This document shows, piece after piece, positions 14,584-64,000 of a DNA stretch of 64,000 nt (positions are counted from its first letter, which is position 1; each line of letters begins with the position of its first letter). The stretch lies in assembly GCA_015501585.1 (NCBI GenBank), contig JADNRY010000238.1, positions 31,467 through 95,466 on the forward strand, given 5' to 3'. This stretch comes from Rhodocollybia butyracea (lineage: Eukaryota > Basidiomycota > Agaricomycetes > Agaricales > Omphalotaceae). The notes beneath the pieces were generated by a model. That model was not told the DNA's origin. It saw only the letters and a program-made list of their open reading frames with translations, and searched no databases. The translations under genes and the position numbers were made by a program.

Positions 14584-15090
14584 CATCCGGAAAAACACTT
14601 TTTTGCCAGGGAAGACCCAAACCTTCCTAAGGTGTCCCCAGGTGCCCCTGGTAGCCTAGGTGCTCTATGGTCTCTAGGCTTCCTAAAGATATGTGCCCAA
14701 TCCTCAAGCTCCTCAATTTCCTGGGAAACCATGGAGACCCCAGGTGCAGTCAATGATCTCCTTTGCACCTCCTTCAGAATTCTTTCAGGGCAGTTTGTAG
14801 CTACCAACTGGTGCTCTCTGGTAGTACCAGCACCATCCAATGGAGCCCAAGCTTCTCCTGGATAGCTCTTTGAAAATCTTTTGGGGGAATGTTCTAGCAC
14901 TCTGTGAGCAACTGGTGTTTACCAGAGAGCTCACTGGCTTTTCCCTCAGCTGTGTTAGCGGTGTCCTGGGGTATCCTGATATTGTCCTAGGGAATCCTAA
15001 TGCTGTCCTAGGATATCCTAGCGCTGTCCTGGGATATCCTAGTGCTGTCCTAGGATATCCTAGCGCTGTCCTGGGATAACACACAGGATA
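14584..15090. mobile_element. Element with foldback-like end and a 21-bp tandem array
   Basis: It starts CATCCGGAAAAACACTTTTTT, reminiscent of the CATCAGGAAAAGC terminus of the palindromic family, and interrupts the LTR fragment. At about 14971-15079 a 21-bp unit (GCTGTCCTAGGATATCCTAGC, alternating AGG/GGG) is repeated about five times; the unit itself is largely palindromic and shares the CCTAGG theme of the foldback family. The other end is not recognised. 15091-15329 contains nothing I can name. Confidence 0.4.
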
Positions 15091-46013: not shown

Positions 46014-47855
46014 TATTAGGCCTAAAATTGGCCTAAGGCGTGTAACCGTACATTTTGACACTTTGTACGTGTTATACAATGCAATAAGAGAGTTATACGG
46101 AGCCCGAGCGTGATAGCTGTTGCCGAGGCAAAGAACTTAACAATAATACTCAGCGAGCCGTGAAGGTACGCCCACAAGCGTAGCCTAGAGCCAAGCTAGC
46201 GAGGATACCTGGGCTGCCCGGAGATGTGACGCTAGACGGTCAATCTAGTTATACCCAAGAGTGTATACTCTCTAAACTACAGGACATCTCGAAGCGGGAT
46301 AAGTACTAAGCCAACGCGTTACTCGAGGGAAGGAATTATGAGGGAAGGCATCCCTCGCACTAAGACCCCCAACGAGCTATGTTAAGATGTGGACTTTACA
46401 GTCCGTAACAATGGACCAGAACAATCCCGAGGGAAACCGTAGAGGTCTATTCGCGGCACCGGTCGCGACCGTGAGGACGGTAGAAACATGCTTAGCGGAC
46501 CTACGGAAAGCTACGCGCCGGGATAGCCTTGGCAAATCGAAACATTTGATCTTAGAAATCATACACGGAAGGTCTTATCCGTTAAAGCCGACTATCGGGA
46601 ATCACTTGTACATACTCAGCGCAGTTGCTCGAGATTATCATAAGTGGTGTCGTTGGAAAGCTAGATAACAGGTCTTCTCGAGAGAATGTTAATCACACTC
46701 AGGATGGACAGAACTATCCGAGGAATAGAATGAAACTCACCCAAGGGAAACCGGGCGGCGAGTGATCATGAAGCGTAAAGGTACTCCTGACCCCGGAGAA
46801 TTGTGGAGTAATCGGAGAAACCTCGCTCGGATCAAAACACTCTAAAACTATGTTAATCCTCACGAAATCATATTTTACCTCTAATATATACCCAAGAATG
46901 GACTATTTCTTTATCGTGTGTACCATATATAGGCTGGAGTTTCCTTTCCGAGCCAGATTCCTCTGTTCCACTCTCTTTCCGTCTCTCTCCGTGTCTGTTT
47001 CATCTATTTTTCGTATTAAACTCTCTCTACTCAGTATATAAGCCAGATATATTTATTCAATAAGACAAGTTTCTTGCCCTTGACTTGACTGCTAAGACCA
47101 GTGCTCCGTAGAACGTCCCCACGGGATCAGTAGCGTGACGCCTCCTGACTTGGTTATCTTAAGAAAGTAATAAACTTCACGCGCTTCGCAAAGCCCATTT
47201 ATATCTTGATCGAATTTAAGTGTGTAGAGTTCTCTCGAACTCCAGATCAACTCAAATCTAGTTGCTTCCTTAGAGGGGACGGTTTCTAGTAAGGGATTAT
47301 TCGGCTCCAGAGTGAGGGTTCCTTAGTTGACTTCTTCACGAAGTTAGACGAGCCACTAAGATTGTGGTACGAGTTCCTAGTGATTAAGTTCACTCACAAT
47401 ATCGTAGCTTGGCCCAGAGTTTGGTCGAGGACTTTACGGCGTCACAGCAGCTAGTGCCAGAGTTTGCCTAGGGTTGTTGACAAACCTCGAGATTACTATT
47501 CTAGCTAGAGCCAGAGTTTGCCTAGGAGAATCTTAGTTTCGTTGTATTGGTTTTGGTTTTGGTTAATTGATTTGGACATACATACCCGGTTCCCTCGTAC
47601 ACTCGTACACCTCAACTAGGCTTCTCTCGACTTAGTTCTAAGAGTTGTCTAAGCTTAGTTACCCACGTTAGCGCTACAGTCTTGAACCTGGAGCAGTCGC
47701 GCGCGTACATCCGATATTACAAAGCTTTCCCTCGGGGAATCTCTGACAACCCGCCCTCGCTCCCTTACATATCGATAGTCTGGTTAGGTGCGGTAGTGTT
47801 TTTGTTAGGTTGTTTTATAGCACCTTTCGCATACCTACACGTAAATACCCAAATA
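46014..47855 (+). repeat. 5' LTR (1842 bp)
   Basis: Identical to 62160-64000 apart from the three differences noted. It begins TATTAGGCC and ends CCCAAATA; the ends TATT...AATA form a 4-bp inverted repeat in place of the usual TG...CA. The right limit is confirmed by the diverged LTR copy at 13655, which departs from this one exactly after AATA. Short frames inside it recur in both LTRs and are not considered genes. Confidence 0.92.
47035..47042 (+). promoter_or_regulatory. LTR TATA box
   Basis: TATATAAG follows a pyrimidine-rich stretch (CTCTCTTTCCGTCTCTCTCC). A transcription start about 25-30 bases downstream would place U3 at about 46014-47065. The AATAAA at 47169-47174 is then in position to act as polyadenylation signal near the R-U5 border. 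Confidence 0.55.
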
Positions 47856-47857
47856 TC

Positions 47858-47875
47858 TGGAGCCCACCGCGAGGG
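47858..47875 (+). promoter_or_regulatory. Candidate primer-binding site
   Basis: Two bases (TC) after the LTR the sequence TGGAGCCCACCGCGAGGG begins with TGG, the complement of a tRNA 3' CCA, at the standard place. It implies a primer tRNA ending ...GGTGGGCTCCA. I could not assign the tRNA. Confidence 0.55.
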
Positions 47876-48428
47876 CTGGAATCTAATTTTATCGGATTTT
47901 ACTACAAACCTAGTCCTTGGGTTAGTAGAGTTCATCTTCTTTGTCCTTCGTTCGCTAGTCCACAAGATTAGTGATCCCTCGGATAATACACCTGATTCAG
48001 AGTCAACTCTTTCCGGAGTAGGCGAACTTCCTGATCCGGGAACATCTGAATTAAGACGCAGTAAAAGAGTACCTAAACCTCGAGAACGATATAATAGTAG
48101 TGTCGAACCCGAACGTCGACCTCCTTTTTCTGTCACTCGAGCAGGATCTAACACTCCGTCTTCACGCGGATCTAAACCAAGCATAGTCCGTGCGACTTCT
48201 GAAACAACTCACGTTGCCAAGAAGTCTTTAAAAGGGAAAGCGAAAGCAGATCCCACTGATACTACTCAAGCCAGTTCACGTACAAGGGGTGCTCCAGCCC
48301 GTGTGCAAGACAATTTGACTAGTCAACCTTCATCTTCATCTTCATCTCTTCCTCGTATTCCCGAGGAAATCTCTCAGTTAGCTACAGCAGTTAACCAACT
48401 CTCGTCTTCTATTTTAAACAATCTTACA

Positions 48429-49952
48429 ATGAGTACTACTACAAGCAATAACAACCCGGGTTCGAGCGGGAACGCTGGAGGCTCTAGTGGAAACGCTGGA
48501 GGTTCGAGTGGTTCTGGCGGATCTGGTGGCGCAGCTCCCACGGGAACGAATGCTACGGTTGCGCAATTGTTTGGAGACAAAATTAAGTTAACACAAGATG
48601 AGCTCGATGAATATAACTCGAAGTACCTTCCTAAGCGTAGTAAAACGGCGACACTATTCAATAAAGATGATCCGTCTATGTTGAATGGTTGGATTGAGGA
48701 TACTACTCGATTCATTGCCGCGGCAAACATTACCAAGGAAGCAGCGAAAGTGGCGTTGGCGTTGGACTGGATGACTTATTCCACTCGGGAAGCATACAAG
48801 TATCTACCCTCCGTCGAAACTCCTAATTTGCAACAGTTCTTCAGAGATTTACGAGCAATCTTCTCGGAATCGGTAGATAGTGAGCTTGGTTCACGCCAAG
48901 AGCTCGAGATCTTAACCGGGAAGTTCACACCTCTGGACATTGGTAAACATCAAAAGATCATGATGTATAACCGAGAGTTTAAGAATCTCGTGGATAAGCT
49001 GATGAAACCGCCGGCAATCCTTTCCAACGCTGAAGCTGTCAAGGCATATCTTGTGCCCATGAGCGAAAGGTTGTATTTAGCGATTTCCGCGCGTTTGTCA
49101 CAGAATGTTACGCATGTTCAGTTGTTGTCTCGTCGCCGTGAAGATCCTTATCTACTTTCAGAAGTCATGGAAGCAGCCGAGAGTCCCGATTTCAGAACCC
49201 TCGATACCTATTATGGTAACGGAGCTCGTCCAACTGGATCTCAAGGTGTTCCTGACTCTGCCGAAACTTATAGTCGAGGTGCATTATCGTTCAGATTCTC
49301 TCCTCATCTTCCAGAGACCACTCCCGCGGATCCCGTGAAAGTGGAACCTAAGCAGGAAGAAGTGTCGGAAGTTCTCGCGGGAATCGCCTCGATTAAAGAT
49401 ACTATCGCTCTGAACAGGAAAGAGACTAATTTAGTCTTGGATGGTCACCAAAAGGCTATCTCCTCGATGATGAGCTTAATGAAGGATAATATAGAATCCA
49501 AACGCTCAGGATACACGTCAACGCAAGTTACTGCGCCGCCGAATACCTCGAAGACCATTCCGGATTGGGGGCAGGGTTGTTTTATGTGCGGGTCACTAGA
49601 ACATCGCATGTCGGAGTGCCAATTCTTTAATTCCTACAAGGATAAAGGATGGTTAGTTCCTGACACTACTCCCGGGTCGAAGAAGTATACTTTGCGCGAT
49701 GGTACGCCGTTGCCGAGGAACGACCCTAGTGAATCTCGCCCAGAAAAGATTGCAAGGATTGCAAAATCTAAAGGCTGGGATAAGGGTGGAACCAATGCAT
49801 TCTTTGTCGAGGAAGAAGACTACTTGGATACCGAGGAGCAAGAGCCTCACCTCACTTCGTTTTTGGCTTCCATGAAAAAGCTAATGGAGGAACATGAGAC
49901 GAACGGTCGTTATATCGCCGGCTCCGGGGAATCCAAGGAGTCGGGAAACTAA
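48429..49952 (+). CDS. gag: Gag (507 aa from the first ATG)
   Basis: The structural capsid-nucleocapsid protein. ATG 48429 is the first ATG downstream of the LTR promoter and has A at -3. A Gly/Ser/Asn-rich N-terminus (GSSGNAGG repeats) is followed by a helical capsid-like domain (residues about 90-230, with SMLNGWIEDTTRFIAAANIT and MSERLYLAISARLSQ). A CCHC knuckle C-x2-C-x4-H-x4-C lies at residues 384-397 (49578-49619), then a charged tail to the TAA. The frame is open without ATG for another 249 codons upstream (to 47682), running through the LTR and primer site, with a Pro/Ser/Arg-rich protein-like segment; an upstream non-AUG start cannot be excluded. The last sense codons form the slippery site that leads to protease. 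Confidence 0.85.
   Translation: MSTTTSNNNPGSSGNAGGSSGNAGGSSGSGGSGGAAPTGTNATVAQLFGDKIKLTQDELDEYNSKYLPKRSKTATLFNKDDPSMLNGWIEDTTRFIAAANITKEAAKVALALDWMTYSTREAYKYLPSVETPNLQQFFRDLRAIFSESVDSELGSRQELEILTGKFTPLDIGKHQKIMMYNREFKNLVDKLMKPPAILSNAEAVKAYLVPMSERLYLAISARLSQNVTHVQLLSRRREDPYLLSEVMEAAESPDFRTLDTYYGNGARPTGSQGVPDSAETYSRGALSFRFSPHLPETTPADPVKVEPKQEEVSEVLAGIASIKDTIALNRKETNLVLDGHQKAISSMMSLMKDNIESKRSGYTSTQVTAPPNTSKTIPDWGQGCFMCGSLEHRMSECQFFNSYKDKGWLVPDTTPGSKKYTLRDGTPLPRNDPSESRPEKIARIAKSKGWDKGGTNAFFVEEEDYLDTEEQEPHLTSFLASMKKLMEEHETNGRYIAGSGESKESGN
49943..49949 (+). promoter_or_regulatory. -1 frameshift site 1 (gag-pro), GGGAAAC
   Basis: In the gag frame the end reads TCG GGA AAC TAA, that is X XXY YYZ (G GGA AAC) immediately before the stop. 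A -1 slip enters the frame GGG AAA CTA ATT GCT TCG GCG ATG, open into the protease ORF. GGGAAAC is a slippery heptamer known from luteovirus-type viruses. A 6-bp hairpin (CTAGAG/CTCTAG, 49980-49997) lies 30 bases downstream. Confidence 0.8.
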
Positions 49953-49963
49953 TTGCTTCGGCG

Positions 49964-51388
49964 ATGCAGGGTAGAGTCACTAGAGGAAATACTCTAGGCA
50001 AGCAGGCAGACTCGAAAAAGCCCACATCTACGAAGGAATTGGTTAAGAAGGTAGGCCCGCCAACGAAAGGTACCCTTAGGGAGCCCCTAATTGAAAAGCC
50101 ACCACCTAAAAGCCCTGCTATTAAAGAGAAACATAAACAAGTGGAAGTCGTGATTCCCGTGAAAAAGAAGTTTGTTGAGAAAGCTGTTGTCGGCGACGAT
50201 GACGAGTTCTCTCGAGATGGAACTGGAATTATCCTTGATAAGGAAGCTGACGAAGAGTTCGCTCGGAGTCTGGCTGAATTAAGGGAAGAAGCTCCTATTC
50301 CCGAGATAACTAAGGTTACTCATAGACCATTCGACGCGGTGAAACCACATGCGGTTCATCCCATTCCACGCAATCAACCACGTCTAGAAACCCAAGATAA
50401 AGACAGTCCTGTCAAGGAGAAGTCTGTCGAGGATAATGGACCCAAATTTAATATTAGAAGTGGATTTCACTTACCTGGAGTCGAGGAAGAAGTCGCTCGA
50501 AAGTTGTTCGATGCAGAAGTAACGCTGACATCAGAGGAGCTATTAGCGCTGAGCCGGCCTCTCCAGAAAATTATGTTAAGGAAAGCTAGGAACGTCAGGG
50601 TAACTCCTACTAAGAGGAAGAATGCTTATGTTAGTACTCTCCTCGAAGATGGCACTGAAGTACCTGAGGAGCTGGAACTTCCTCGCGGGAACGAATTCGA
50701 TAGTTATATCTCCATGGATAGCATTAAGCTTGATAGTGAAGAAATCTTCGAAGTCCTCGAGCATAACCATAATGGTTTGAAGGCCGGTTCTATTGTACAA
50801 CGGGACCCTGTTGAAGCCTTTAAAGCAGACTTACCCGAGGGTGACGAGCGCCGTAATTTGGTAATTGTCGCGGGAAGATCTAGTAGTCTCCGGTGTATTA
50901 ACACGAAGATCAATCATCAGGATGGAACAACCGAGGCAATCCTCGACAGTGGCTGTCAGATCGTAGCAATAGATCGTCAGACTGCTGTAGAGTTGAATTT
51001 GGTCTGGGATCCTACTGTAACGATTCGTCTGCAGGATGTACACGGAGGTCTCGAGGAAACCGCAGGTCTTGCGAGAAATGTTCCTTTCCAGATTGGTGAA
51101 ATTACAATCTATCTGCAACTGCATGTGCAACAGCGGGCACCATTCGAAGTGCTGATTGGTAGGCCATTTGACGTTCTCACGGAATCCGTGATAAAGAATC
51201 ATGCGGATGGTAGCCAAGAGGTGACGATTACGGACCCCAACACCGGGAATAAATGTACTATGGGTACACATATTCGCTCTACGAGACGAAGACTTAGGAC
51301 TGACAATCCCGAGTTCAAACCCAAACTAGTTCCGGAGCATGCAGGAAGTAGTAACAATCCCGTCAAGGAGGAACAGGGAAATTTTTAA
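49964..51388 (+). CDS. pro: Protease ORF (Pro), expressed by -1 frameshift
   Basis: 474 codons from the first ATG, but the frame is open from the slippery site at 49943, so the expected product is a Gag-Pro fusion. The N-terminal 260 residues are charged and without recognisable fold. The retropepsin-like aspartic protease has its catalytic triplet at ILDSGCQIVAIDRQTA (Asp residue 328) and the flap/C-terminal motif LIGRPFDVL at about residues 397-405. It cleaves the polyproteins during particle maturation. The frame is -1 to gag and +1 to pol. It ends in the sequence GGA AAT TTT TAA. Separate coding of protease in its own frame between gag and pol is unusual in Ty3 elements. Confidence 0.85.
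   Translation: MQGRVTRGNTLGKQADSKKPTSTKELVKKVGPPTKGTLREPLIEKPPPKSPAIKEKHKQVEVVIPVKKKFVEKAVVGDDDEFSRDGTGIILDKEADEEFARSLAELREEAPIPEITKVTHRPFDAVKPHAVHPIPRNQPRLETQDKDSPVKEKSVEDNGPKFNIRSGFHLPGVEEEVARKLFDAEVTLTSEELLALSRPLQKIMLRKARNVRVTPTKRKNAYVSTLLEDGTEVPEELELPRGNEFDSYISMDSIKLDSEEIFEVLEHNHNGLKAGSIVQRDPVEAFKADLPEGDERRNLVIVAGRSSSLRCINTKINHQDGTTEAILDSGCQIVAIDRQTAVELNLVWDPTVTIRLQDVHGGLEETAGLARNVPFQIGEITIYLQLHVQQRAPFEVLIGRPFDVLTESVIKNHADGSQEVTITDPNTGNKCTMGTHIRSTRRRLRTDNPEFKPKLVPEHAGSSNNPVKEEQGNF
51376..51382 (+). promoter_or_regulatory. -1 frameshift site 2 (pro-pol), GGGAAAT
   Basis: In the pro frame G GGA AAT is in X XXY YYZ phase, one codon before TAA (51386-51388). The -1 frame reads GGG AAA TTT TTA AAC CTC GAG GAT and stays open to the pol ATG at 51433. 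Starting 6 bases after the heptamer, ACCTC (51389-51393) can pair with GAGGT (51418-51422), and inside that loop two GATC copies (51397-51400, 51409-51412) can pair, giving a stacked hairpin at the spacing typical of frameshift stimulators. Confidence 0.75.
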
Positions 51389-51432
51389 ACCTCGAGGATC
51401 TGAGTAGCGATCAAGGAGAGGTAGAATTTGCT

Positions 51433-54400
51433 ATGAGTTTCCATTTTGACGATAATAGTGATATTGTATGTGATGGATATAAGTTCGCAGAAACGGGTCA
51501 GTTTTCCGAGCAGGAGTTAAGCGAGGCCTATGTCATGGCTTCGAGAAATTTCATTGCGCAGAAAGCTCCCGAGGACGATGAGCTTATTGAAGCCTACGTA
51601 AATAAACAACTAGTGGATGGAAATAGACGAGTATTCAACGCTCACAAAGAAGGCTTGGACTACGAAGAACCCGAGGAAGGTCCTGTACTAGTAAATAGAG
51701 AGGAATTGCCCGACTTTGATGACCACGCGAAAGCCTTCGCCGGATTCACTACGAAACCGGGAACTAATGAGCGGCATGCTGTCTTCAGGAAGGGTGATGC
51801 TAAAAGTACGAAAAGGGAGACTCCTAAGTTTCCTGGTTCCCCGAAATTTGTAAAAGGTGGAAAACCTCGTCGCAGCATACCCAAATTGCCTCCTAGGCCT
51901 CTGTCTGACCTTCCACGAGTAAAAGATTATACCTATACGCCGTATACAAAGCCCGAGAGTTATGAACCGCGCAAGAATTCAATTCCTCGGAAAAGAACTG
52001 CGATTAAAGATCCCAAGAATGGGAAGGTTTATGATTTGGTCGATGCTTTTGGCGCAAAGAAATACAAACCAGTTGGTGTCAAAGTACATCCTGTGAAAGC
52101 GGATCTACCCGAGGAATACAGAGTTCGACGGTGTATCACCGGCAATCCTCTCGAGGGAATGCCTGAATTATCACCCAATCCGCCTGAGTTCACTCCAACC
52201 GGACGCTACACACAGGAAAGAAAAGAGATTATCGACGAAAATCACTCAGAGGATTTCCTATGGCCGGAAGAAAGGAAGTTGATTCATCACTTCATGATGC
52301 TTCAGGAACAAGCGTTTGCCTGGAATGCAGAGGAAGCTGGTACCTTCAAGGAAGAATTCTTCCCCGCGGTTAAAATTCCAGTACTCCCGCATGTTCCGTG
52401 GGTCATTCGTAACATTCCAATACCACCCGGGATCTTTGAGGACGTGTGTAAGATAATAAAACAAAAGATTGATGCAGGAGTTTACGAACCTAGTAGTGCC
52501 TCTTATCGCTCAAAGTGGTTTTGCGTAGTTAAAAAGGATGGAAAAAGTTTACGTTTGGTCCATAGTCTGGAACCGTTGAATGAAGTTACTATACAACATT
52601 CTGGTGTACCGCCGGCCCCGGCTGAAGTCTCTAGGGACTTCTGTAGTCGAGCTTGTGGAGCTACTTTTGATCTCTATGTCGGATACGATGAGAGGCCATT
52701 AGCAGTTTCCTCGAGGGATCTAACGACCTTTCAAACACCTTTTGGACCACACAGGCTCGTGAAATTACCAATGGGATGGACAAATTCCGTACCAATCTTC
52801 CACGACGATGTAACCTATATCCTACAAGACGAAATTCCACATGTTACCGTCCCCTATATCGACGATGTTCCCGTAAAAGGTCCGAATACTAGGTACGAAC
52901 TTCCAGACGGAGGTTACGAGACCATATCAGAGAACGCCGGGATTCGACGATTTGTTTGGGAACACATGCAGAATGTTAACCGGGTGTGTCAACGGATGAA
53001 ATATGCCGGGGGTACTTTCTCGGGGAAAAAGTCTTTCATTTGTAATCCTGAAATTATCGTCCTAGGACACCGTTGTACTTACGAAGGCAGGATGCCTGAG
53101 GCTGGGATTGCTGAATCAATCTTGACTTGGCCCGAATGCAAGAATAAGCACGACGTACGAGCTTTTCTTGGGACTGCTGGACAGTTGCGAATGTTTATCG
53201 AGAACTACGCAAAGAAGGCAATGCCCTTGACAAAGTTAACTAGTGACATGGATTGGGAATGGGGAGATGAACAACGGGAAGCAATGGACGCTCTCAAGGA
53301 TGGTGTAAGGAATGCCCCGGCACTCCGAAACATTAACTATGAGTGGGACGTTTGTCTCGCAGTTGACACTTCTTACAAAGCAGTGGGATGGTTTATTTAT
53401 CAAATAGATCCTGACGATCCTAAAAAGAAGTATTTTAATTACTTTGGATCAACTACGTTAAACGAGCGGGAAGCCCGGTTCTCTCAGTCTAAGAGAGAAC
53501 TCTATGGTCTCAAACTATCATTACAATCAAGCTATTACTTAGTCTATGGCTCTCGACGAATGACCGTGGAGACTGATGCAAGCTACATCAAGGGTATGTT
53601 AGATCATCCCAGCTGTGGTCCGAACGCTACAATCAATAGATGGATTGAGGAGATCCGTAAGTTCCACTTCAAGATTTTACATGTGAAGGGTATTTTGCAC
53701 GGACCAGATGGTTTGTCACGGAGACCTCCAGGCGGATATCAGTCCCCTCGACCACCAATCGACCCAGATGACTATGAAGATTACGATGATGGAGCTCCCG
53801 TTGAGCTTATCATGGGTGAAGGGGCCAAAGAACCTTTAGACTTTGAGTCCTTCAAGGACGACATTGACCCACGCAGTGGTTACCTCGGTGAGCTAGCTTG
53901 TCATCCTGAGGACATCCAGGAAGAACTCCAGGAAGCCCTCGATGACGAGAAAGCATCCGAACGTCACCGAAAATCGCTGATCAAAAGTCACGGTGAAATC
54001 TACTCTTCGTTCAGTCAAACACTTCATATTCCACAAGACTCCGCGGAATGGAGGGCTGATAACCCTTACCCTCGGGAACGTCGGTCGGAATGGGGAAATA
54101 AACTAGATGATATGTTACCTACTATTGCCAAGTGGCATACAGGTGATGAGAAGGATATCACAGAAAACATGAGCGCACCGGAAGCCCGAAGCTTTTTGCG
54201 TCAAGCAAAGAAATTCTTCGTGGATAAGAAAGGTCGGCTTTATAAGAAAGCTACTGAGGAAGGTGCTCAGCATCAATTAGTGGTTAGTCCTGACCGTCGA
54301 ATGTATATGCTACATTGCGCACATGATAGCTTAGCACATAAAGGAACGTTTGCTACCCGCGAGTTCCTGGATCGACGTTTTTGGTGGCCTGATATGGAAA

Positions 54401-55677
54401 GCGACGTACATTGGTATGTTGGCTCTTGCATTCCTTGTCAGAACCGTCAATTACGCCTTCTGAAGATTCCCCCGGTCGTAACACATACTCCCTCATTGTT
54501 CCAGAAAGTGCATGTTGATACTATCAATATCACACCCGCGAGCAATAGGTGTAAGTATATTGTTCACGCTAGGGATTCTCTGTCAAGTTGGTCAGAAGCC
54601 CGGGCCTTACCGCAAGAAAACGCGAAGTCCCTGGCCGAGTGGTTCTTTGATGACATAATCTGTCGTTGGGGATGTCCTGAGGAAGTTGTCACGGATAACG
54701 CCCCGGTGATGTTAGCCATGGTTAACTGGCTCGAGAATAAATATGGAATTCGAGGGATCCGGGTCTCGCCATATAATTCCCAAGGGAATGGCAAAATTGA
54801 AAGAGCGCACTTTGATATTCGACAGGCTCTGGTAAAAGCGACGGGCGGCGATATCAAGAAGTGGTTCTACTTCCTTAAACATGTATTATGGGCTGATAGA
54901 ATAACGGCGAGGAGAGGTTTTGGTTGTTCACCATTCTTCTTGGTAACCGGCGCGGAACCATTATTACCTTTTGACATCGTTGAGTCTACATGGTTGGTAA
55001 ACCCACCAGATCGTATCTTGACGACCGAGGAATTATTGGGTTATCGTGCACAGGCCTTGTCAAAACATAGAACCTTTGTCGAGGACATGCGAGAGCGTGT
55101 CACTGAAAATAAGAGAAGAGACCTAAGGGAGTTCGAGAAGAAGTATCGCCATGTCATCTTCGACTACGATTTCAAACCCGGGACGCTTGTTCAGGTTAGA
55201 AATACAGCAATCGAAAAGAATCTTGACAGGAAGATGTTCCCTAGATATATGGGACCGATGGTCGTTATCCGTAGAACTAGGGGAGGTTCTTACATTATCG
55301 CGGAAATGGATGGTACCGTGTTGAAAAGCAAAGTTGGTGCATTTAGGGTCTTACCCCACCGTTCCCGATACGAACCTATGGACTTACCTGAGGATATACA
55401 TGATCTCATCGACTTGACCAAGGATCAGTTAGACACCATGGTAAACGATGGTGATGACGATGAGGATGTGGAATTTATCCGTAAAGGGGGGGACCCCTTG
55501 TTTGATCAAATCCCTACCTTGAGAAAACCAGTAGACGGTAATGAAGTGGTTTATAACCCTGAAGACCCGGACTCTGACGAAGATTCAAGCGAGGAAGAGA
55601 TTATACCGGAGACAGACGAAGCTCCTCGTGTCAGAACACGCGCGATGCGAAAAGTGATACCTAATAATGAACGCTAA
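51433..55677 (+). CDS. pol: Pol: reverse transcriptase, RNase H, integrase (1414 codons)
   Basis: Expressed as a Gag-Pro-Pol fusion via site 2; the ATG at 51433 may not be used. Residues 1-310 are a charged linker. The RT domain holds SKWFCVVKKDGKSLRLVHS and the active site YIDD (residues 475-478, 52855-52866). RNase H shows LAVDTSYKAVGWF, SKRELYGLKL and TVETDAS. Integrase has an HHCC finger (HDSLAHKG...CIPCQ, about residues 963-1002) and the catalytic residues Asp1029 (HVDT), Asp1088 (TDNAP) and Glu1123 (KIERAH), by my count 34 residues between the last two instead of 35. A GPY/F-like module (FPRYMGPMVVIRR) follows near residue 1275. There is no chromodomain; the tail is acidic (DPDSDEDSSEEE). 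Intact and presumably functional. Confidence 0.95.
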   Translation: MSFHFDDNSDIVCDGYKFAETGQFSEQELSEAYVMASRNFIAQKAPEDDELIEAYVNKQLVDGNRRVFNAHKEGLDYEEPEEGPVLVNREELPDFDDHAKAFAGFTTKPGTNERHAVFRKGDAKSTKRETPKFPGSPKFVKGGKPRRSIPKLPPRPLSDLPRVKDYTYTPYTKPESYEPRKNSIPRKRTAIKDPKNGKVYDLVDAFGAKKYKPVGVKVHPVKADLPEEYRVRRCITGNPLEGMPELSPNPPEFTPTGRYTQERKEIIDENHSEDFLWPEERKLIHHFMMLQEQAFAWNAEEAGTFKEEFFPAVKIPVLPHVPWVIRNIPIPPGIFEDVCKIIKQKIDAGVYEPSSASYRSKWFCVVKKDGKSLRLVHSLEPLNEVTIQHSGVPPAPAEVSRDFCSRACGATFDLYVGYDERPLAVSSRDLTTFQTPFGPHRLVKLPMGWTNSVPIFHDDVTYILQDEIPHVTVPYIDDVPVKGPNTRYELPDGGYETISENAGIRRFVWEHMQNVNRVCQRMKYAGGTFSGKKSFICNPEIIVLGHRCTYEGRMPEAGIAESILTWPECKNKHDVRAFLGTAGQLRMFIENYAKKAMPLTKLTSDMDWEWGDEQREAMDALKDGVRNAPALRNINYEWDVCLAVDTSYKAVGWFIYQIDPDDPKKKYFNYFGSTTLNEREARFSQSKRELYGLKLSLQSSYYLVYGSRRMTVETDASYIKGMLDHPSCGPNATINRWIEEIRKFHFKILHVKGILHGPDGLSRRPPGGYQSPRPPIDPDDYEDYDDGAPVELIMGEGAKEPLDFESFKDDIDPRSGYLGELACHPEDIQEELQEALDDEKASERHRKSLIKSHGEIYSSFSQTLHIPQDSAEWRADNPYPRERRSEWGNKLDDMLPTIAKWHTGDEKDITENMSAPEARSFLRQAKKFFVDKKGRLYKKATEEGAQHQLVVSPDRRMYMLHCAHDSLAHKGTFATREFLDRRFWWPDMESDVHWYVGSCIPCQNRQLRLLKIPPVVTHTPSLFQKVHVDTINITPASNRCKYIVHARDSLSSWSEARALPQENAKSLAEWFFDDIICRWGCPEEVVTDNAPVMLAMVNWLENKYGIRGIRVSPYNSQGNGKIERAHFDIRQALVKATGGDIKKWFYFLKHVLWADRITARRGFGCSPFFLVTGAEPLLPFDIVESTWLVNPPDRILTTEELLGYRAQALSKHRTFVEDMRERVTENKRRDLREFEKKYRHVIFDYDFKPGTLVQVRNTAIEKNLDRKMFPRYMGPMVVIRRTRGGSYIIAEMDGTVLKSKVGAFRVLPHRSRYEPMDLPEDIHDLIDLTKDQLDTMVNDGDDDEDVEFIRKGGDPLFDQIPTLRKPVDGNEVVYNPEDPDSDEDSSEEEIIPETDEAPRVRTRAMRKVIPNNER

Positions 55678-56122
55678 CGTGTTCGAGGGATTTATAACAC
55701 TATGCATTTCCTTGCCGTGGAAAGAAACTTACCTTTGTGTCGGAGTTATGTTAATCTCGAGAACTCCGTGTTATCATCAATACACGTGGATTTATTGGGC
55801 TTTTAAGATTGTAATAGTCAGAGGCCTATGTTAAAGATATAAACGAGTGACTATAGGCTTAACTAGTACTGGAATCGAATTGCCGGAGCTCACAGGCTAC
55901 CAGGCGAAGAAGATAAAGAGACTGTAAAGACTGTGGTTTCTCGAGAGAAAGTTTATTTAAAGAATTCGACTAGAAGCTCGGTTCAGACAACGATATAGTA
56001 TCCGGAGAGAAAAACTTACAAGTTATTTACCACTCCAACGATGCTAACAGGGAGGATTGACACATCGCACACTCCATCCCTGTACATTCACAACAACCAA
56101 TGCTCACTGAAGGCATAGTGGA
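55678..56122. other. Spacer between pol and antisense gene B
   Basis: No reading frame of interest. It would contain the end of pol mRNA on one strand and the 3' untranslated region of gene B on the other. Confidence 0.5.
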
Positions 56123-57756
56123 TTAACGCCCGCTTGTCTGACGATGTTCAAGGGAAAGTTGACGTACACCTTCTACCATTTCTGAGTCCTCTCTGAACTT
56201 CAAAAGGTGGACCAAGCTGTCTGTGACTTTCTGAGCTTGGAGAGCACGAGCGTAAAAGACCTGGGTCTTGCTCAGGTTCCCGAGATACTCGTTCCTATGA
56301 ATATTCAAGAGAACATTGAGATTGGTATCGGTCATCGAGGCAAAGTCGAGTTCGCCAAATTGGCCGGTCAAAGAAGCAAGGAATTGCTTGGCCACAACGC
56401 ATTCGCGTCGCGCACGGGTAACTGCGCAACAGATGTAAGCCGGATTTGTTAAAACACGTTATAAATACTCACCAGCATCCTCGGGAGAGCTATCAATGAG
56501 TTCAGCGTCGAAACGCATGCGCTTTCCGTACTCATTGACAAGACTGGCCGCTTCATTGGCAACCGGCGTTTCCTCGACTTTCCTCTTAAGTGATGAAGTA
56601 CTCACTTCACCGGAAGCCTATGTGGAGACGTCAGCCAAAGTGTTTACAGGGCCCGAGGAAAGGATCTAAGTACCTTGGCCTTCGAGGACTTCCTAGACTC
56701 TCGGGTCTTCTTCCTCGAAGCCTGAGCGCGAGCCAGCGCGTCAGTAATTTCCGGGGGATCCTGGAACTCTTTAGTCAGTACGACCGCTCGTTGATTCCAA
56801 GCCCGAGAGCCAAATGGTCCTTTTGGGAGAGGCAAGCCCGAGCGTGAATGGTAACCCTACGGTTCCTTCAGCACAGTTATCGTGGGATCCGTACAGGCGC
56901 ACGCTTCATGGATTTTATAATATATGTTAAGAAAAGAGAACTTACAAATGCGATCTGCGTAGCGGGATGATCTTCCTCCATGGGTTCATCCTCGTCGTCG
57001 ATGAGAATGGTACCTTTAGAGCTACTAGAGCTTTTAGTCGACTTCGAGGGTTCTTTGGACTCCTTGGAGAACGAGATGGTAGAAAGAGCGGCGGATTTTG
57101 CCGCATAATCGGTGGTCTTGTCATCGTTGGCAGCACTGGAAGCCCCTACTACATCGTGTTTAGACGAAAGACAGTAGTCCAGGATGGTAGCATAGCGAGG
57201 AGGCTTACCGCGGGTAGTGGTGAAAGGGCCCGGCCCTGTAGTACCAGTGACCCCCGAGGAAACCTTCTTCGACGCCGCCTGGGTCGGTATCTATAAGTGT
57301 TTGTTCTCGGATATGCTAAACCGGGCTTACCAGCGCAAGGTTGAGCTCGTTGATGAAATTGCCGAGGCGCACAGCAGTCGCAGAATGAGCAGTCTTAGCG
57401 CTGGGACAGATCTTCATCGCGCGGAGAAGGAGATCATGTCCTTGTTCAAGGACACCAACGTTCGCGGGGAATTTGAGTACTTTCTCCTTATGAAAAGACG
57501 TGGTCTATGGAGGCAGGATATCAAGGTCAGGCTCCCGTGGAAAAGGCGAAAAGAGGCTCACAAGAAGATCGACGTGCTTTTGTACAGTACTAAGAACCTC
57601 TGCCTGAAGGAGCGTCTGATCCTCGACGTACTCGATTGCATCACGGAGCCGACTGGTAGCCTCTTTGAGTGTTCTGGTGGAGGCGACGATGGCTTCCATA
57701 GTATTCTTCATGAACTGCGGTTTGTCATCGGTATTTTGGGTGTTCTTGGAAGACAT
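56123..57756 (-). CDS. Antisense gene B: spliced accessory gene (about 446 aa)
   Basis: Minus-strand gene from ATG 57756 to the stop at 56123. Proposed exons: 57562-57756, 57331-57504, 56946-57290, 56674-56856, 56473-56617, 56123-56421. The five GT-AG introns are 57, 40, 89, 56 and 51 nt, and all joins keep phase. Intron 1 removes the only apparent in-frame stop (TAG, the acceptor itself). Exon 1 is helical (MEAIVASTRTLKEATSRLRD). Exon 3 is Ser/Lys-rich, then acidic (LIDDEDEPMEEDH). Exons 4-5 are basic, with KKTRESRKSSKAK and GKRMRFDAEL as possible nuclear signals. The last exon is helical (RRECVVAKQFLASLTGQFGE). No family recognised. It has no env-like signal peptide or membrane segment. I infer a nuclear accessory protein of the element. 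Confidence 0.75.
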
Positions 57757-58832
57757 TGTAGAGAGACTTGTAGTTCGAGGAAAAGTTTTCTGAGAACTGG
57801 GTCTTGAAATGTTTTTCGCGGACGCTTTTATAGGTTAATGTCTTAGAGCGACGGAGTCCTACGGGTCCCCGGCGCGTTCTGAAACCCAAGTGCTCAACTG
57901 AGGACAGTTGATATCATTAGTTTGGGGGAGGGAAGCGCATGGTGCCAAGACACCATAGCTCCAGGCAGTCCACCATCACGAGGAGAATTTTGAATTTATT
58001 CAACGACATCTATGACCAAAATAGGAACCATAACATTGCTCAACAAAAGGGAGAACACTAGGCAAAACATAAAGCGAACGCTTAAAGAGTATTAGAAGCG
58101 GCACGGGGAAACCTAACGCAGGTACCTCACTGCGATAATTCTCCGGAAAACAAAAACGCTAGGAAAAACCTTACACCCATAATATTGAGCATCAATGGAT
58201 TTCATTTTGACGGTCATCACTATGCCCTAAACAGGACCTGATCCAAGATTGGATGTTGTATTGAAAGAATGTCAATATCTAGGGAAAGATTGCATCACAC
58301 CCAGCTTACTTAGGGATGATAAGTCTTCTCTAGGCTTTCCCTCGAAGACTTGATTACACCGTTAACGAACCATATAGGTTCCCAAGGGCGGGAATTCGAG
58401 TCATAAAAAGCTTTCCGCGAGTATACTCTAACATGCTACACAGAGCTGGTACGGTACTCAAGGAAAAACTTATGCTATTATAACAAAACTCTCGAGAATA
58501 GGCGATCGCGCTGAAAGCCTTCCCGAGAATTCAACTTATGAAAACTTAAGACTTAGGAAAGTCACTCGAGTATGATAGGTACACGTTTGACCCGAAGGTC
58601 TTGTTATTTTATAGGCTTTAGTCTACTATATTCTAAAGGTGCCTATATACCTAAAGAATACTACGATACTGCCCCAGAGAGGGGAGACAATAGAGAAATC
58701 CCCATGCGAGGGGCGAGCAACAAAACACAATATAAAAAGAAAAATTATTTAACGTCCGAGGACGAACAGCAATGCCCACGGCAGACCCAGACCCGAGAAG
58801 ACCACAAACTTAGGAGGAGTGATCTTGGCATC
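57757..58832. other. Region between the two antisense genes, with internal PPT copy
   Basis: No gene. It probably holds the promoter of gene B (just right of 57756), the 3' untranslated region of gene A and, at 57913-57930, the second copy of the polypurine tract. Confidence 0.5.
57913..57930 (+). promoter_or_regulatory. Internal copy of the polypurine tract
   Basis: ATCATTAGTTTGGGGGAG is identical to 62141-62158, the tract that precedes the 3' LTR, and the similarity extends a few bases upstream (GGACAGTTGAT against GGACGGTCAG). It is followed by GGAAGCGCATGG, not by LTR sequence. Confidence 0.7.
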
Positions 58833-61692
58833 TTACGATGTCTCAACTCCCTCCATAAGTTCGTCCTGGGCTTCATCCCGGTCACCGCCAGACGACGTAC
58901 GAAGAGAACGAGGACTCCCGCGAGGACTAACCATGACCGGCGACTGTTCACCTCGAGGACTCCCTGGAGAAAGAATGACCGAATCTTCCACTGGAAGACT
59001 GGTTGTTGAACGAGTTGGAGAGTCCAGAGGAGGAGTAGTAGCCGGAGGGACTTCGAGCGTATCCTCGGGAACAGACTCATCGGGCGCTGGAACAACGGCG
59101 ACTCGGATGTTCTTGCTAAGGAACTGTTCATACCGTTCATTAGTCTTGAAACGGAAGTCCGAGTCCCATCCCATGAAGGAGCACAAAAAGCTCCAGTGCG
59201 TGAGGTCCAACTGGTTCTCGGGGAATGTTGGAACATAGGATTCCACGAAAACGAGCGGGTCCTTGCCAATGTGACGGAGCTCCTGAACTTCGCTCTGCAG
59301 AGAGGTAAACAGCTTCTCGACCGTGCGGTTGAGTTGGTTGCGGGTCTCGATGGCAGCGTCATAAGCCTCGCGAATACGAAGGACAGTGCTGACTTGCCGG
59401 GCCACGTCTATGATAATGTTAGTTAGTAGGAAGTCAGGAAGCATTAATTAGTACTCACTAATCGGTGCGTTCTCTGCCGACTTGTACGTATTGTTGAGCA
59501 CCTCGACTAGTTCCGGCACACGAAAGGTGTCTGAACAAGGTTGGTGCGACGTAGCACAGTTTGGACATCCAGTCCCATACTTACGGTTACCGTGTTCGTC
59601 ACAGGCATACGAGCAGTCCGGCTTATCCTGCTTATCCTCTCCCTTGGTACCCTTGGTACGGCGACCGCCACACTGGATGCAAGGGTTCTCACGGATAACA
59701 GCCGGAGTCTGAAAATCATGTTAAAATCTAAATTATCGATAAACTGAAAACTTACTCGACACAATGCGCGGTTCGCTCGGACAAAGTCCAACCAAGACAT
59801 TTGGTGATCGCCCGTGCTGAGTGCAGGAAGATCCTTGAAGGCATCTAACTCAGGAGTAAGGCCCCAAGTGAGCTCAGCCTTAAAGAGTTCCTTTGGCTTC
59901 TGCAATAAAAAGGCCGAAGCGTTAGTCTTGAAGGGTAGAGAAAAACGGAATAGAACTTACTTGGGTCCCCTTGGGGACAATCTCGTCAAAAGACGGCAGA
60001 TCCATGGCATCACGCTCGAAACGAACAATCACGGTGCGGTATTCTCGAGATCCACTCTTTGCAAACTCTTTGGATGATTGTGCAGCGAGTCTCTTGAAGA
60101 TGTTGTCGAGGTCAACGTTTCCCACATCTCCCTCGGGAACAAGGAAAACCAAGTTCTCGGGCGGAGTATGCACAGGTGTAGGCTCACGAGAAGACTCCGC
60201 AAGTGGGGCCCCCTTGATCTTAGAACTGGAAGCCACGGGAACGGGGATCTCGACAACCGGATTGGACTTCTTGACAGTCTTGAGTTTAGGAGCGGGACGA
60301 GGGACAGGAAGGGATGCAGCCTCGATTTCTTCCGTGGGCTCATTCTGACGTTTGCGTTTCAGTTTGGGCTAGGAAAAATGAGACAGTCAGAATCCGGGAA
60401 AAGAGAAAGGAGAGTAGGAACTCACGGTGATCACGGAGGGGTCCCCCTCTTTGCCTTTGCCTTTGCCTTTCGGCTCTACTATCCTATCCTTTCCTTTAGT
60501 CGAGACTGAAGCATTGCTCCCTCTCGCCGGACCTTTTGCTTTCAGAGCCTTCGAGGTCATCGAAGGTCTGGTCGCCGAACTAGTTGCCAATTTAGATGTG
60601 ACAGTCGCTGGTTTAGCCTTGGGCTCAGCTTTCACTTTGACCTCAGCCTTTGAGGGAAGTGGAGGTTTAGACGACGTCTTCTTGGCGACTGTAGCACTGC
60701 GAGTAGAATGACGAGGGATCTTGCGGGATTCCGAGGAGTCCTAAAAAGAAATATTAAAAGTTAAAAGGATAACGATATAAATAAAACGGGGAAAAGGTAC
60801 CTCTGAGTTCACGGAAATAGCCTCGTAAGGCGATGCCCTGTCCTCGGAAGGACCGTCTTCATCTGAGGCTTCTTCCTCCTCCTCCTCGTCGGTAGGTTCA
60901 CCGGTGTCCAGCCGACTAAAGTGGAGGTCACCTTGAGTTAATAACCACGCCGATTCACGACATCCCTGGTCAAAAGGGAGAGGAATGGGAAGGTCGGGTG
61001 TCTGTCCGCGATGGAGGGCGCTTGCCTAGGAAAAGTTAATAAAAAGAAAAGATAAAGTTAGGGCGAGCCACGTACCAGGATCCGGTCAATAAGAGCCCCA
61101 TCCAAGTACCAGCTTGGTTCCGTGTCGTTGAGCTGTAAAGCACTTCGGACAGCGGCGGAAAGGCGTTGGGCAGCAGCAAAAATGCCTTCGATAATTAAAG
61201 GAACATTCTTACGTCCCACAACATGGGTACGGAGGAATTTCTATCATAACATAAGATAATACGTTAATAAAGGACAAAAAGGGGGCTTACCAGTCGATTA
61301 GCGAGAGCAATAAAACTGGTACGGTATTCTTTAGCCTTGGGCAAAGACGGAGTCCACTCGGGGTCCTTGGCTGCCTCGAAGAGTTGAGGGTTAAAGCGTT
61401 GCTGAACAGCAGTAGCACAGGCCCATATCATCCGTGCAGAATAAGCCGAGGGGACGTCCCTTTTGTCGAAACCAAGACCCCCGGGTTGTTGGAAAAAGAA
61501 AGAATTGGTTTGCGTAGCGTCGGCGGCATTGTCGAATCTCGCAACAAGATGGCTGGCCAGTTCATAGAAGGATGGAAGTACGCTTTTAAAGTCATCTAGA
61601 ATGTCCGAGGAATCGTCTTCACATGTTATGGACAAGTACATATCGACGAGCGAGTCGGGAAGAAGGTCACACTGCTCTCGGTCGGCAAGCAT
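58833..61692 (-). CDS. Antisense gene A: spliced accessory gene with Cys cluster (about 827 aa)
   Basis: Minus-strand gene from ATG 61692 to the stop at 58833. Proposed exons: 61291-61692, 61076-61240, 60801-61025, 60426-60740, 59961-60368, 59756-59899, 59459-59708, 58833-59407. Seven introns of 47-61 nt, all GT-AG, keep phase. The N-terminus is helical (SVLPSFYELASHLVARFD). Exon 3 ends in an acidic run (DEEEEEEASDEDG). Exons 4-5 are Lys/Ser-rich with KLKRKRQ as a nuclear-signal candidate. Exon 7 has a cysteine cluster CIQC...CSYAC...CPNC...C (about 59530-59690) likely to bind zinc. Exon 8 has a coiled segment (IREAYDAAIETRNQLNR) and a Ser/Pro-rich tail. A possible extra intron (59507-59584) is in phase either way; leaving it in completes the cluster. 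No family recognised; I infer nuclear, nucleic-acid-related function. Confidence 0.75.
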
Positions 61693-62140
61693 GGTGGTAA
61701 GAGACGATGATGGGACTTGTTGAAAATTTCCAACATTGTCTTATTAATAGGTCATTGCCCGAAGCCGTAGCCGAAGTGACCGGCATCTGTCTTAAGACGT
61801 AAAACAAACATATCACAAAATACGAATGTGATAGAGGCGTTTTCAGAGTTCTCGGAGACTTAACACGTTAAACTTAAAAGAAAATGTTATCGAGGAAATG
61901 ATTGGAACCCCCAATCAGGAGTCTAGGCGCCCGCGGCATATGTTGTCTTGTAGATCAATTCAATTGTTGACACCTGATTCACATAAGCGCCCGACGTCGA
62001 GAATGATCCCAGTTAAACTTAGGGGTAGTACGTCCAGACTAGTCCGCGGGAAAGGAATTAGAATGCTAAATGCCGAGAACATAAAAGGGATTGCTAGCAG
62101 AGTCGATCCTAGGCTTGGTGGGCTGACCGGGGACGGTCAG
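61693..62140. other. Promoter side of gene A, before the 3' PPT
   Basis: No gene recognised. It must contain the promoter of antisense gene A unless that gene is transcribed from the 3' LTR in reverse. Confidence 0.4.
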
Positions 62141-62159
62141 ATCATTAGTTTGGGGGAGA
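62141..62159 (+). promoter_or_regulatory. 3' polypurine tract
   Basis: TTTGGGGGAGA directly precedes the 3' LTR, the position of the plus-strand primer in LTR elements. Confidence 0.85.
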
Positions 62160-64000
62160 TATTAGGCCTAAAATTGGCCTAAGGCGTGTAACCGTACATT
62201 TTGACACTTTGTACGTGTTATACAATGCAATAAGAGAGTTATACGGAGCCCGAGCGTGATAGCTGTTGCCGAGGCAAAGAACTTAACAATAATACTCAGC
62301 GAGCCGTGAAGGTACGCCCACAAGCGTAGCCTAGAGCCAAGCTAGCGAGGATACCTGGGCTGCCCGGAGATGTGACGCTAGACGGTCAATCTAGTTATAC
62401 CCAAGAGTGTATACTCTCTAAACTACAGGACATCTCGAAGCGGGATAAGTACTAAGCCAACGCGTTACTCGAGGGAAGGAATTATGAGGGAAGGCATCCC
62501 TCGCACTAAGACCCCCAACGAGCTATGTTAAGATGTGGACTTTACAGTCCGTAACAATGGACCAGAACAATCCCGAGGGAAACCGTAGAGGTCTATTCGC
62601 GGCACCGGTCGCGACCGTGAGGACGGTAGAAACATGCTTAGCGGACCTACGGAAAGCTACGCGCCGGGATAGCCTTGGCAAATCGAAACATTTGATCTTA
62701 GAAATCATACACGGAAGGTCTTATCCGTTAAAGCCGACTATCGGGAATCACTTGTACATACTCAGCGCAGTTGCTCGAGATTATCATAAGTGGTGTCGTT
62801 GGAAAGCTAGATAACAGGTCTTCTCGAGAGAATGTTAATCACACTCAGGATGGACAGAACTATCCGAGGAATAGAATGAAACTCACCCAAGGGAAACCGG
62901 GCGGCGAGTGATCATGAAGCGTAAAGGTACTCCTGACCCCGGAGAATTGTGGAGTAATCGGAGAAACCTCGCTCGGATCAAAACACTCTAAAACTATGTT
63001 AATCCTCACGAAATCATATTTTACCTCTAATATATACCCAAGAATGGACTATTTCTTTATCGTGTGTACCATATATAGGCTGGAGTTTCCTTTCCGAGCC
63101 AGATTCCTCTGTTCCACTCTCTTTCCGTCTCTCTCCGTGTCTGTTTCATCTATTTTTCGTATTAAACTCTCTCTACTCAGTATATAAGCCAGATATATTT
63201 ATTCAATAAGACAAGTTTCTTGCCCTCGACTTGACCGCTAAGACCAGTGCTCCGTAGAACGTCCCCACGGGATCAGTAGCGTGACGCCTCCTGACTTGGT
63301 TATCTTAAGAAAGTAATAAACTTCACGCGCTTCGCAAAGCCCATTTATATCTTGATCGAATTTAAGTGTGTAGAGTTCTCTCGAACTCCAGATCAACTCA
63401 AATCTAGTTGCTTCCTTAGAGGGGACGGCTTTCTAGTAAGGGATTATTCGGCTCCAGAGTGAGGGTTCCTTAGTTGACTTCTTCACGAAGTTAGACGAGC
63501 CACTAAGATTGTGGTACGAGTTCCTAGTGATTAAGTTCACTCACAATATCGTAGCTTGGCCCAGAGTTTGGTCGAGGACTTTACGGCGTCACAGCAGCTA
63601 GTGCCAGAGTTTGCCTAGGGTTGTTGACAAACCTCGAGATTACTATTCTAGCTAGAGCCAGAGTTTGCCTAGGAGAATCTTAGTTTCGTTGTATTGGTTT
63701 TGGTTTTGGTTAATTGATTTGGACATACATACCCGGTTCCCTCGTACACTCGTACACCTCAACTAGGCTTCTCTCGACTTAGTTCTAAGAGTTGTCTAAG
63801 CTTAGTTACCCACGTTAGCGCTACAGTCTTGAACCTGGAGCAGTCGCGCGCGTACATCCGATATTACAAAGCTTTCCCTCGGGGAATCTCTGACAACCCG
63901 CCCTCGCTCCCTTACATATCGATAGTCTGGTTAGGTGCGGTAGTGTTTTTGTTAGGTTGTTTTATAGCACCTTTCGCATACCTACACGTAAATACCCAAA
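62160..64000 (+). repeat. 3' LTR, missing its last two bases
   Basis: Begins TATTAGGCC and follows the 5' LTR at an offset of 16146, or 16147 after a one-base insertion near 63429. The window ends at CCCAAA; TA is expected next. Confidence 0.92.

Follow-up and report, generated by a model that had tools for sequence, protein, structure and literature searches.

Antisense genes between pol and the 3′ LTR

The stretch of DNA analysed here, called the window, comprises 64,000 nucleotides of contig JADNRY010000238.1 of the agaricomycete Rhodocollybia butyracea (positions 31,467 to 95,466, or G000:C537:31467-95466 in the genome used for comparison) and reaches the end of that contig. It carries a Ty3-type retrotransposon with long terminal repeats (LTRs), in which the 6.5-kb stretch from pol to the 3′ LTR holds two predicted genes on the minus strand, named A and B:

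56123..57756, minus strand: gene A, 6 exons, 442 amino acids
57756-57562, 57504-57331, 57278-56946, 56856-56674, 56617-56473, 56421-56123, minus strand: exons of gene A
57825..57832, minus strand: TATAAAAG box upstream of gene A, read from the sequence
58833..61692, minus strand: gene B, 8 exons, 827 amino acids
61692-61291, 61240-61076, 61025-60801, 60740-60426, minus strand: exons 1–4 of gene B
60368-59961, 59899-59756, 59708-59459, 59407-58833, minus strand: exons 5–8 of gene B
61740..61749, minus strand: TATA-like TATTAATAAG upstream of gene B, read from the window

Gene models were built with our own dynamic-programming script using simple splice scores, complemented by shuffles and codon-position counts for both genes and by comparison with a divergent version for B. 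The script recovered all junctions of both genes except the last acceptor of B; its own choice at that point (851 codons with the stop) was replaced by 59407, selected by eye and open to 58833, since 59408 reads out of frame. The two models contain 12 GT-AG introns of 47–89 nucleotides in unbroken phase. The first-pass annotation, made from the letters of the window, had placed two minus-strand genes of 6 and 8 exons at these same positions, and both were confirmed, together with the number, ends and phase of the introns and the length of B; its values for the smallest intron (40 nucleotides) and for the product of A (about 446 amino acids) had to be corrected.

The best model for B scored 85.0 on the minus strand, a value belonging to the model with the wrong last exon; the plus strand reached 22.2 and the highest of 60 dinucleotide shuffles 36.8. 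For A the minus strand scored 39.7, the plus strand 21.8, and none of the 60 shuffles more than 16.7. In both cases the real sequence outscored 60 of the 60 shuffles, and the introns of B recurred in a divergent version of the gene (see below), in agreement with the earlier expectation that frames of this kind would not persist by chance. Chance open reading frames (ORFs) were ruled out by the shuffles, by intron conservation, and by the ratio of nonsynonymous to synonymous divergence (dN/dS, omega). In a deposited R. butyracea gene prediction, P0001, the joints coincide with our model of B at introns 1, 5, and 6 at least, and depart from it at introns 2 and 7. The TATAAAAG box was found 5′ of A in all 19 loci (of L021–L040) for which the script located a start context. 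As judged from these features, A and B are real antisense genes of a spliced type.

Copies of A and B and their coding constraint

The genome compared, G000, comprises 95.6 Mb in 1381 contigs. A search with 2 kb of B returned at least 41 matches (best 40 of 61 candidates scored), at least 18 of them full length at 94–100% identity; gene A likewise returned at least 41 (best 40 of 50 candidates scored), and exon 6 of A 54 (all 56 candidates scored), some of these matches being pieces of a single copy. The 40 loci fetched represent 33 distinct places. Of the 20 loci picked because they carry A, 17 contain B as far as its start, 7 of them with a type-1 B, the type present in the window, and 10 with a divergent, type-2 B. 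The other three are L031 and L037, which stop at contig ends before B, and L039, which loses similarity within B; a clean absence of B was observed in none of the 20. The proposal that A and B are stable cargo of the element agrees with these counts and with their order in a diverged family described below; a single transduced host gene is disfavoured by copy number and constraint.

Substitutions among the copies followed codon structure. In gene A (21 sequences, the window plus 20 loci), segregating sites fell on codon positions 1, 2, and 3 in numbers of 20/13/37 (P 1.6e-5), with 33 nonsynonymous and 37 synonymous sites and an omega of about 0.36; 25 of 306 intron columns were variable. In type-1 B (17 sequences, the window plus 16 of 17 loci, L011 being dropped as short), the counts were 100/79/137 (P 3.2e-9), with 180 nonsynonymous and 142 synonymous sites and an omega of about 0.51; exclusion of the most diverged loci, L017 and L018, left 15 sequences with 65/49/101 (P 9.4e-9) and an omega of 0.45. 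All these P values take sites as independent. The comparison of dN and dS across copies that had been called for earlier gave an omega well below 1 for both predicted genes, showing purifying selection on A and B at the level of their codons. The family as a whole does not show the neutral decay that would have spoken against these genes, and many single copies are broken.

Divergent versions of gene B

The identity profile of the window against 18 of the 20 A-selected loci (L022 and L024 left out) covered 7.1 kb per locus, with gag and most of pol outside, and revealed one hypervariable stretch:

58900..61690, no strand: hypervariable stretch, mostly 45–65% identity (range 38–68%) between the window and ten type-2 loci

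Type-2 loci were 96–100% identical to the window in bins 55900 to 58100; at lower positions L035 and L038 carry rearrangements. Approaching B from its 3′ side, identity fell stepwise from 96–97% at 58100 to 89–91% at 58500 and 75–77% at 58700; just 5′ of the start of B it was 84–95% (bin 61700), then 89–99% (bin 61900), and then 93–100%. Copies differing in B were mostly 95–100% identical over A and the start of the LTR. The low identity within B against nearly identical surroundings indicates that the deep divergence is that of B plus its immediate flanks. Outside the profile, pol matched contigs bearing type-2 B (e.g., C91, C712, C379) at 97–100%.

Only one type-2 locus, L030, served as a full model of B; in the readings of broken type-2 copies, false introns span the frame breaks, and these readings were not taken as proteins. 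The B of L030 shares 397 of 817 residues (49%) with that of the window, and all seven introns lie at the same place and phase, one of them off by one column in a gapped stretch, with no evident similarity between the intron sequences themselves. Over the whole of B, this pair gave a dN of 0.46 and a dS of 2.7, which is saturated (NG86 method). Exon 1 was compared for 4 of the 5 intact type-2 loci, several pairs and domains yielding no dS estimate: L025 and L030 share 97 of 133 residues (dN 0.17, dS 1.84), whereas L027 and L030, which carry the same version, gave a dN of 0.013 and a dS of 0.066. The deposited P0001 matched a further contig, C1371, at 97–99% in larger pieces and at 88–89% in two smaller ones. 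These comparisons show several versions of the predicted gene B, old (dS about 2), under constraint, and divergent, in elements that are otherwise nearly identical.

A repeated polypurine tract around gene B

The polypurine tract (PPT) that directly precedes the 3′ LTR recurs exactly between A and B:

57913..57930, plus strand: internal PPT-like motif ATCATTAGTTTGGGGGAG, an exact 18-nucleotide repeat of the 3′ PPT

Gene B is bracketed by the two PPT-like motifs, about 4.2 kb apart. Genome-wide, ATCATTAGTTTGGGGGAG gave 122 matches with at most two mismatches, vs a single match for the reversed pattern. The 100 matches listed include 28 same-strand pairs on one contig, of which 25 are 4059–4255 bases apart and three are separated by 3498, 5218, and 7310 bases. 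In C1371 the 3′ motif lies about 450 bases before the start of B, like in the window, indicating that the P0001-like version of B also sits in such an element. A central PPT serves as a second plus-strand start in lentiviruses and in Ty1; hypothetically, the internal tract could make B a separate plus-strand segment here.

Probable exchange between versions of gene B

Four type-2 loci (L028, L029, L032, and L035) are 98–100% identical over the 3′ 2 kb of the alignment (1, 0, and 6 base differences to L028 in L029, L032, and L035, respectively, with 1–3 gaps), whereas each forms a group of its own over the 500 columns that follow; farther 5′, L028 and L029 group together again. The switches occur at about the same columns (~2000–2060), where L028 and L030 are only 55–75% identical. 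Speaking against a reading of these loci as mosaics, gap openings per ~950 letters of the 5′ part, counted against the nearest fetched haplotype, amounted to 19 in L028, 15 in L029, and 18 in L032, vs 0, 2, and 3 in L033, L038, and L027. Decay should affect both halves of a gene, and the 5′ halves of L028, L029, and L032 may therefore be collapsed mixtures. For this reason the case for recombination relies on the deposited sequence P0002. Compared with L025, P0002 matches 113 of 118 aligned residues in the N-terminal part, where the alignment has one gap of 18 residues, and 27 of 27 in the piece that follows; agreement then drops to 50 of 83 columns for the linker and 106 of 137 for exon 5. 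In exon 6 it matches L030 in 26 of 26 residues and L025 in 22 of 26. Its pieces match L028 exactly where this is readable (33/33, 31/31, 83/83, 134/134, and 26/26). Recombination among the B versions is in part shown by this single in-frame case of P0002 against L025 and L030, as far as can be read from the sequences.

Related element families

A diverged family was found on two contigs. C357 carries a reverse transcriptase (RT) match at 112671 (plus strand, 85%), exon 6 of A at 116464 (minus, 55%), exon 8 of B at 119214 (minus, 34% to the window), and exon 1 of B at 121431 (minus, 38% to P0001), in the order and orientation of the window and with similar spacing. On C555, RT (84%), exon 6 of A (56%), and exon 8 of B (29%) follow one another in this order, with no match to B exon 1 among the matches listed. 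These matches show that the diverged family has the same layout of predicted genes A and B.

A second Ty3 family was represented by at least 19 RT matches at 70–72%, covering at least 224 of 238 residues (best 150 of 326 candidates). Its members lie on C600, C739:309444, C972:40197, C451, C476, C680, and others, and several have long open pol frames. Separately, B-like exons at 28–41% were detected at C1072:246774, C1325:16353, C205:11384, C1116:51307, and C1094:11517, on contigs with no RT match among those listed; it is possible that these are host genes or another type of element, and the source of B.

Features of the predicted products

Inspection of B by eye revealed a basic KRKR motif in the linker and a six-cysteine cluster, and a helical N-terminus was seen by eye or in a poor structure model. 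The zinc cluster of Zn2Cys6 transcription factors has the spacing C-x2-C-x6-C-x(5-12)-C-x2-C-x6-8-C; in B only the final part, C-x2-C-x6-C, resembles it by eye, and an assignment to this class was rejected, no Zn_clus match being found in type-1 B (up to E 1) or in P0001 and the B of L030 (up to E 10). An HBZ-like bZIP protein was likewise rejected (no Pfam bZIP in A or B), as was the TRP28 domain of Retand-type elements (PF04195), which Pfam searches detected neither in A and B (E up to 1) nor in P0001 and the B of L030 (E up to 10). In searches of protein collections, partly limited to the ~8,000 candidates sharing most words and so liable to misses, the only relatives of B were P0001–P0003 of R. 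butyracea, and none was found for A.

Structure of the host element

The element spans 46014 to beyond 64000 of the window, and its two LTRs (46014-47853 vs 62160-64000) are 99.84% identical in self-alignment. It is a young LTR retrotransposon of the Ty3 type: two LTRs, a PPT, and the order protease, RT, ribonuclease H, integrase, as in Ty3/Gypsy elements (Metaviridae), are all present.

46014..47855, plus strand: 5′ LTR, ~1.84 kb with TATT...AATA ends, from self-alignment; the end at 47855 is taken from other copies
47859..47875, plus strand: candidate primer-binding-site-like sequence, TGG-starting, just after the LTR, assigned by position
48429..49952, plus strand: gag from the first ATG, frame open back to 47571
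49898..51388, plus strand: protease frame, −1 relative to gag, Pfam Asp_protease_2 above cut-off
51355..55677, plus strand: pol (RT, ribonuclease H, integrase), −1 relative to protease
62141..62158, plus strand: 3′ PPT ATCATTAGTTTGGGGGAG, directly before the 3′ LTR
62160..64000, plus strand: 3′ LTR, running to the end of contig and window

The Pfam matches of gag to Ty3_capsid and zf-CCHC were weak and below cut-off. In pol, RT_RNaseH_2, RT_RNaseH, and Integrase_H2C2 were above cut-off and RVT_1 and rve below it; a chromodomain at the C-terminus of the integrase, which marks the chromovirus branch that includes Boty, was not found in pol up to E 1 in Pfam. The best solved relative of pol is the Ty3 Gag-Pol structure 7q5b (E 6.8e-36).

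Gag, protease, and pol occupy three frames, each −1 to the preceding one. The heptamers GGGAAAC (49943-49949, in the slippery register of the gag frame) and AAATTTT (51379-51385, also in slippery register) lie directly before the gag and protease stop codons, and this placement suggests two −1 frameshifts in the expression of the three frames, as in betaretroviruses. The gag frame is open for 858 nucleotides upstream of its first ATG (47571-48428), across the primer-binding-like site and into the 5′ LTR; this part carries hydrophobic stretches and is possibly a spliced or non-AUG leader of gag. Elsewhere in the window, 13657-14586 is an inverted fragment of the same LTR (~95% identical), and 37236-37843 and 37994-38600 form inverted repeats of ~608 nucleotides (96.5% identical) around a spacer of ~150 nucleotides.

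Comparison with known antisense genes

According to PMC7264820 and PMC11963269, plant Ty3 elements are well known to carry antisense ORFs in the region from pol to the 3′ LTR. As described there, elements of the Retand/Tat type (Retand, Grande with gene23, RIRE2) share with the present one a long region between pol and the 3′ LTR and have antisense ORFs in most copies, with products proposed to be nuclear or DNA-binding (PMC11963269, PMC7264820). A hypervariable module such as that of B is not part of the Retand/Tat type as these two papers describe it, and the word intron is absent from the main text of both (PMC11963269, PMC7264820). The antisense ORF between pol and the 3′ LTR by which Retand-type elements are recognised is present in the window; the Retand/Tat type is a plant group for which TRP28 is typical, whereas TRP28 was not found here.

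The brtn gene of Boty, an element of Botrytis cinerea, was reportedly described by Zhao et al. in 2011. In the accounts of PMC7264820, PMC8365987, and PMC4227169, Boty is a fungal Ty3-type element with brtn in antisense between pol and the 3′ LTR. Its gag-pol is said to have a CHROMO domain (PMC4227169), whereas none was found in this element. The likeness to Boty follows its description in these citing papers, which name one antisense gene, vs two here.

In human T-cell leukaemia virus type 1 (HTLV-1), the messenger RNA of HBZ is spliced and HBZ is a bZIP protein, whereas no bZIP was found here and introns are many. HBZ resembles A and B in lying antisense near the 3′ end, and its product localises to the nucleus (PMC11963269). 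The antisense promoter of HTLV is placed in the 3′ LTR by PMC7264820, whereas the TATA-like boxes of A and B lie between the LTRs. In a further case (PMC9548176), homing endonuclease genes interrupted by spliceosomal introns lie antisense within group I introns; these too are opposite-strand genes of a mobile element, although of another kind that has no packaged RNA genome.

The open-access literature searched yielded no description of paired multi-intron antisense genes in an LTR element of a fungus. The novelty put forward at first is only partial, because antisense genes at this place were already known from plants and from brtn of Boty; what appears new, from the sequences compared, is a multi-intron antisense pair of which one member occurs in old divergent versions among nearly identical elements.

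Proposed mechanism and alternative explanations

We consider it likely that a Ty3-type family of R. butyracea carries two antisense genes that belong to the element and work broadly as follows. A and B would be transcribed as minus-strand messenger RNAs from their own TATA-type promoters and then spliced. Their introns would survive because the genomic RNA that is packaged runs in the opposite sense, where the spliceosome does not recognise them; this idea, already present in the first-pass annotation, fits the data and follows from retrotransposon biology, the mechanism itself being one that we infer. Versions of B could pass from one element to another when reverse transcription switches template between genomic RNAs packaged together, with the two PPT-like motifs perhaps yielding the separate segment mentioned above. 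A would be a second accessory protein. The weakest step concerns B, which might be a nuclear regulatory protein whose old diversity is kept for recognition or anti-silencing, where difference pays; we hold this function with low confidence. The old versions hint that B helps the element to live with its host or its relatives. That B is a diversity module in the full sense, with selected old alleles recombined by reverse transcription within the two PPTs for element recognition or escape from silencing, seems to us rather doubtful.

Several observations weigh against the proposal of two element-owned genes as a whole or in part. The splicing and expression of A and B are predicted from sequence, and all copies compared come from one genome. 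The 20 type-1 loci correspond to 17 distinct places (L008/L034, L013/L023, and L014/L040 being repeats), and only three of these copies (L021, L022, and L024, equal to the window) are intact through B; 13 have exon indels, L011 and L018 with splice-site gaps or changes in addition, and L012, although free of indels, stops early. Where copies are otherwise identical, some of the one-base indels resemble sequencing errors. Exon 1 is intact in L025, L027, L030, L033, and L038 and broken in the other five of the ten type-2 loci. No Pfam domain was detected in A or B (E up to 1) or in P0001 and the B of L030 (E up to 10), nor any sequence relative of B in the PDB up to E 1, and the sole fold attempt (P0001 plus nine other rows) reached a mean pLDDT of 45, and no fold search was based on it; the earlier suggestion that the products control silencing, transcription, or integration found no domain to stand on. 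The 19 RT matches of the second Ty3 family have no match to A exon 6 or B exon 8 within 15 kb. Related elements lacking the genes, named beforehand as a finding that would count against them, were in this sense found in part, A and B being either absent from that family or too diverged for detection. The diversity of B, finally, could be introgression without selection.

The lack of domains, the family without detectable A and B, and the B-like matches at 28–41% on contigs with no listed RT match, possibly host genes, would all suit a host gene cluster captured once in antisense and functionless for the element. This we regard as very unlikely, since dN/dS is well below 1; the constraint holds across copies and between old versions, 17 of 20 A-bearing loci carry B and the remaining three give no clear case of its absence, and the same arrangement recurs in the diverged family. 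A draft of 1381 contigs might also have yielded chimeric or mixed B genes through the collapse of repeats, and scattered one-base indels in otherwise identical copies, the gap-rich 5′ and clean 3′ halves of L028, L029, and L032, and the alternation of L032 between two haplotypes near its switch are what such an artefact would leave. It is nevertheless an improbable source of the divergent versions, which occur in loci with clean frames (L030, L038, L027, and L025 in exon 1) and in the deposited P0001–P0003 (though perhaps from the same raw data), while P0002 is an in-frame mosaic whose pieces match L028 exactly and intron places are conserved between versions.

Two further explanations accept the genes and concern the diversity of B. 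A young backbone of LTR, gag, pol, and A may have passed into older elements through template switching and taken over their B segments by chance, a course of events that we find quite possible without favouring it. Amino-acid divergence between B versions is low relative to synonymous divergence, giving no sign of positive selection, and at least one in-frame mosaic, P0002, is available. Random exchange should, however, have left old segments in A, the end of pol, and the start of the LTR too, whereas, over the 7.1 kb compared per locus, all ten type-2 loci diverge deeply only in B and directly beside it. The proteins might instead act in the replication cycle, in integration targeting or nuclear import of the preintegration complex, the versions of B then corresponding to different chromosomal targets. 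The KRKR motif seen by eye is compatible with this, and so is a pol in which no chromodomain was found, since targeting would then need another factor; no domain found in A or B supports such a role, and we judge it unlikely.

Retrotransposons are expected to lose introns, since they pass through RNA. The family described here indicates that intron-rich genes may be kept for long by their position on the opposite strand. The constrained old versions of B offer a handle on the role of antisense accessory genes, also in the plant elements Retand and Grande. If the diversity of B proves to be under selection, transposons would possess, as a population, an allelic system for recognition or anti-silencing, and the pattern, if true, would be comparable to that of incompatibility or mating-type alleles.

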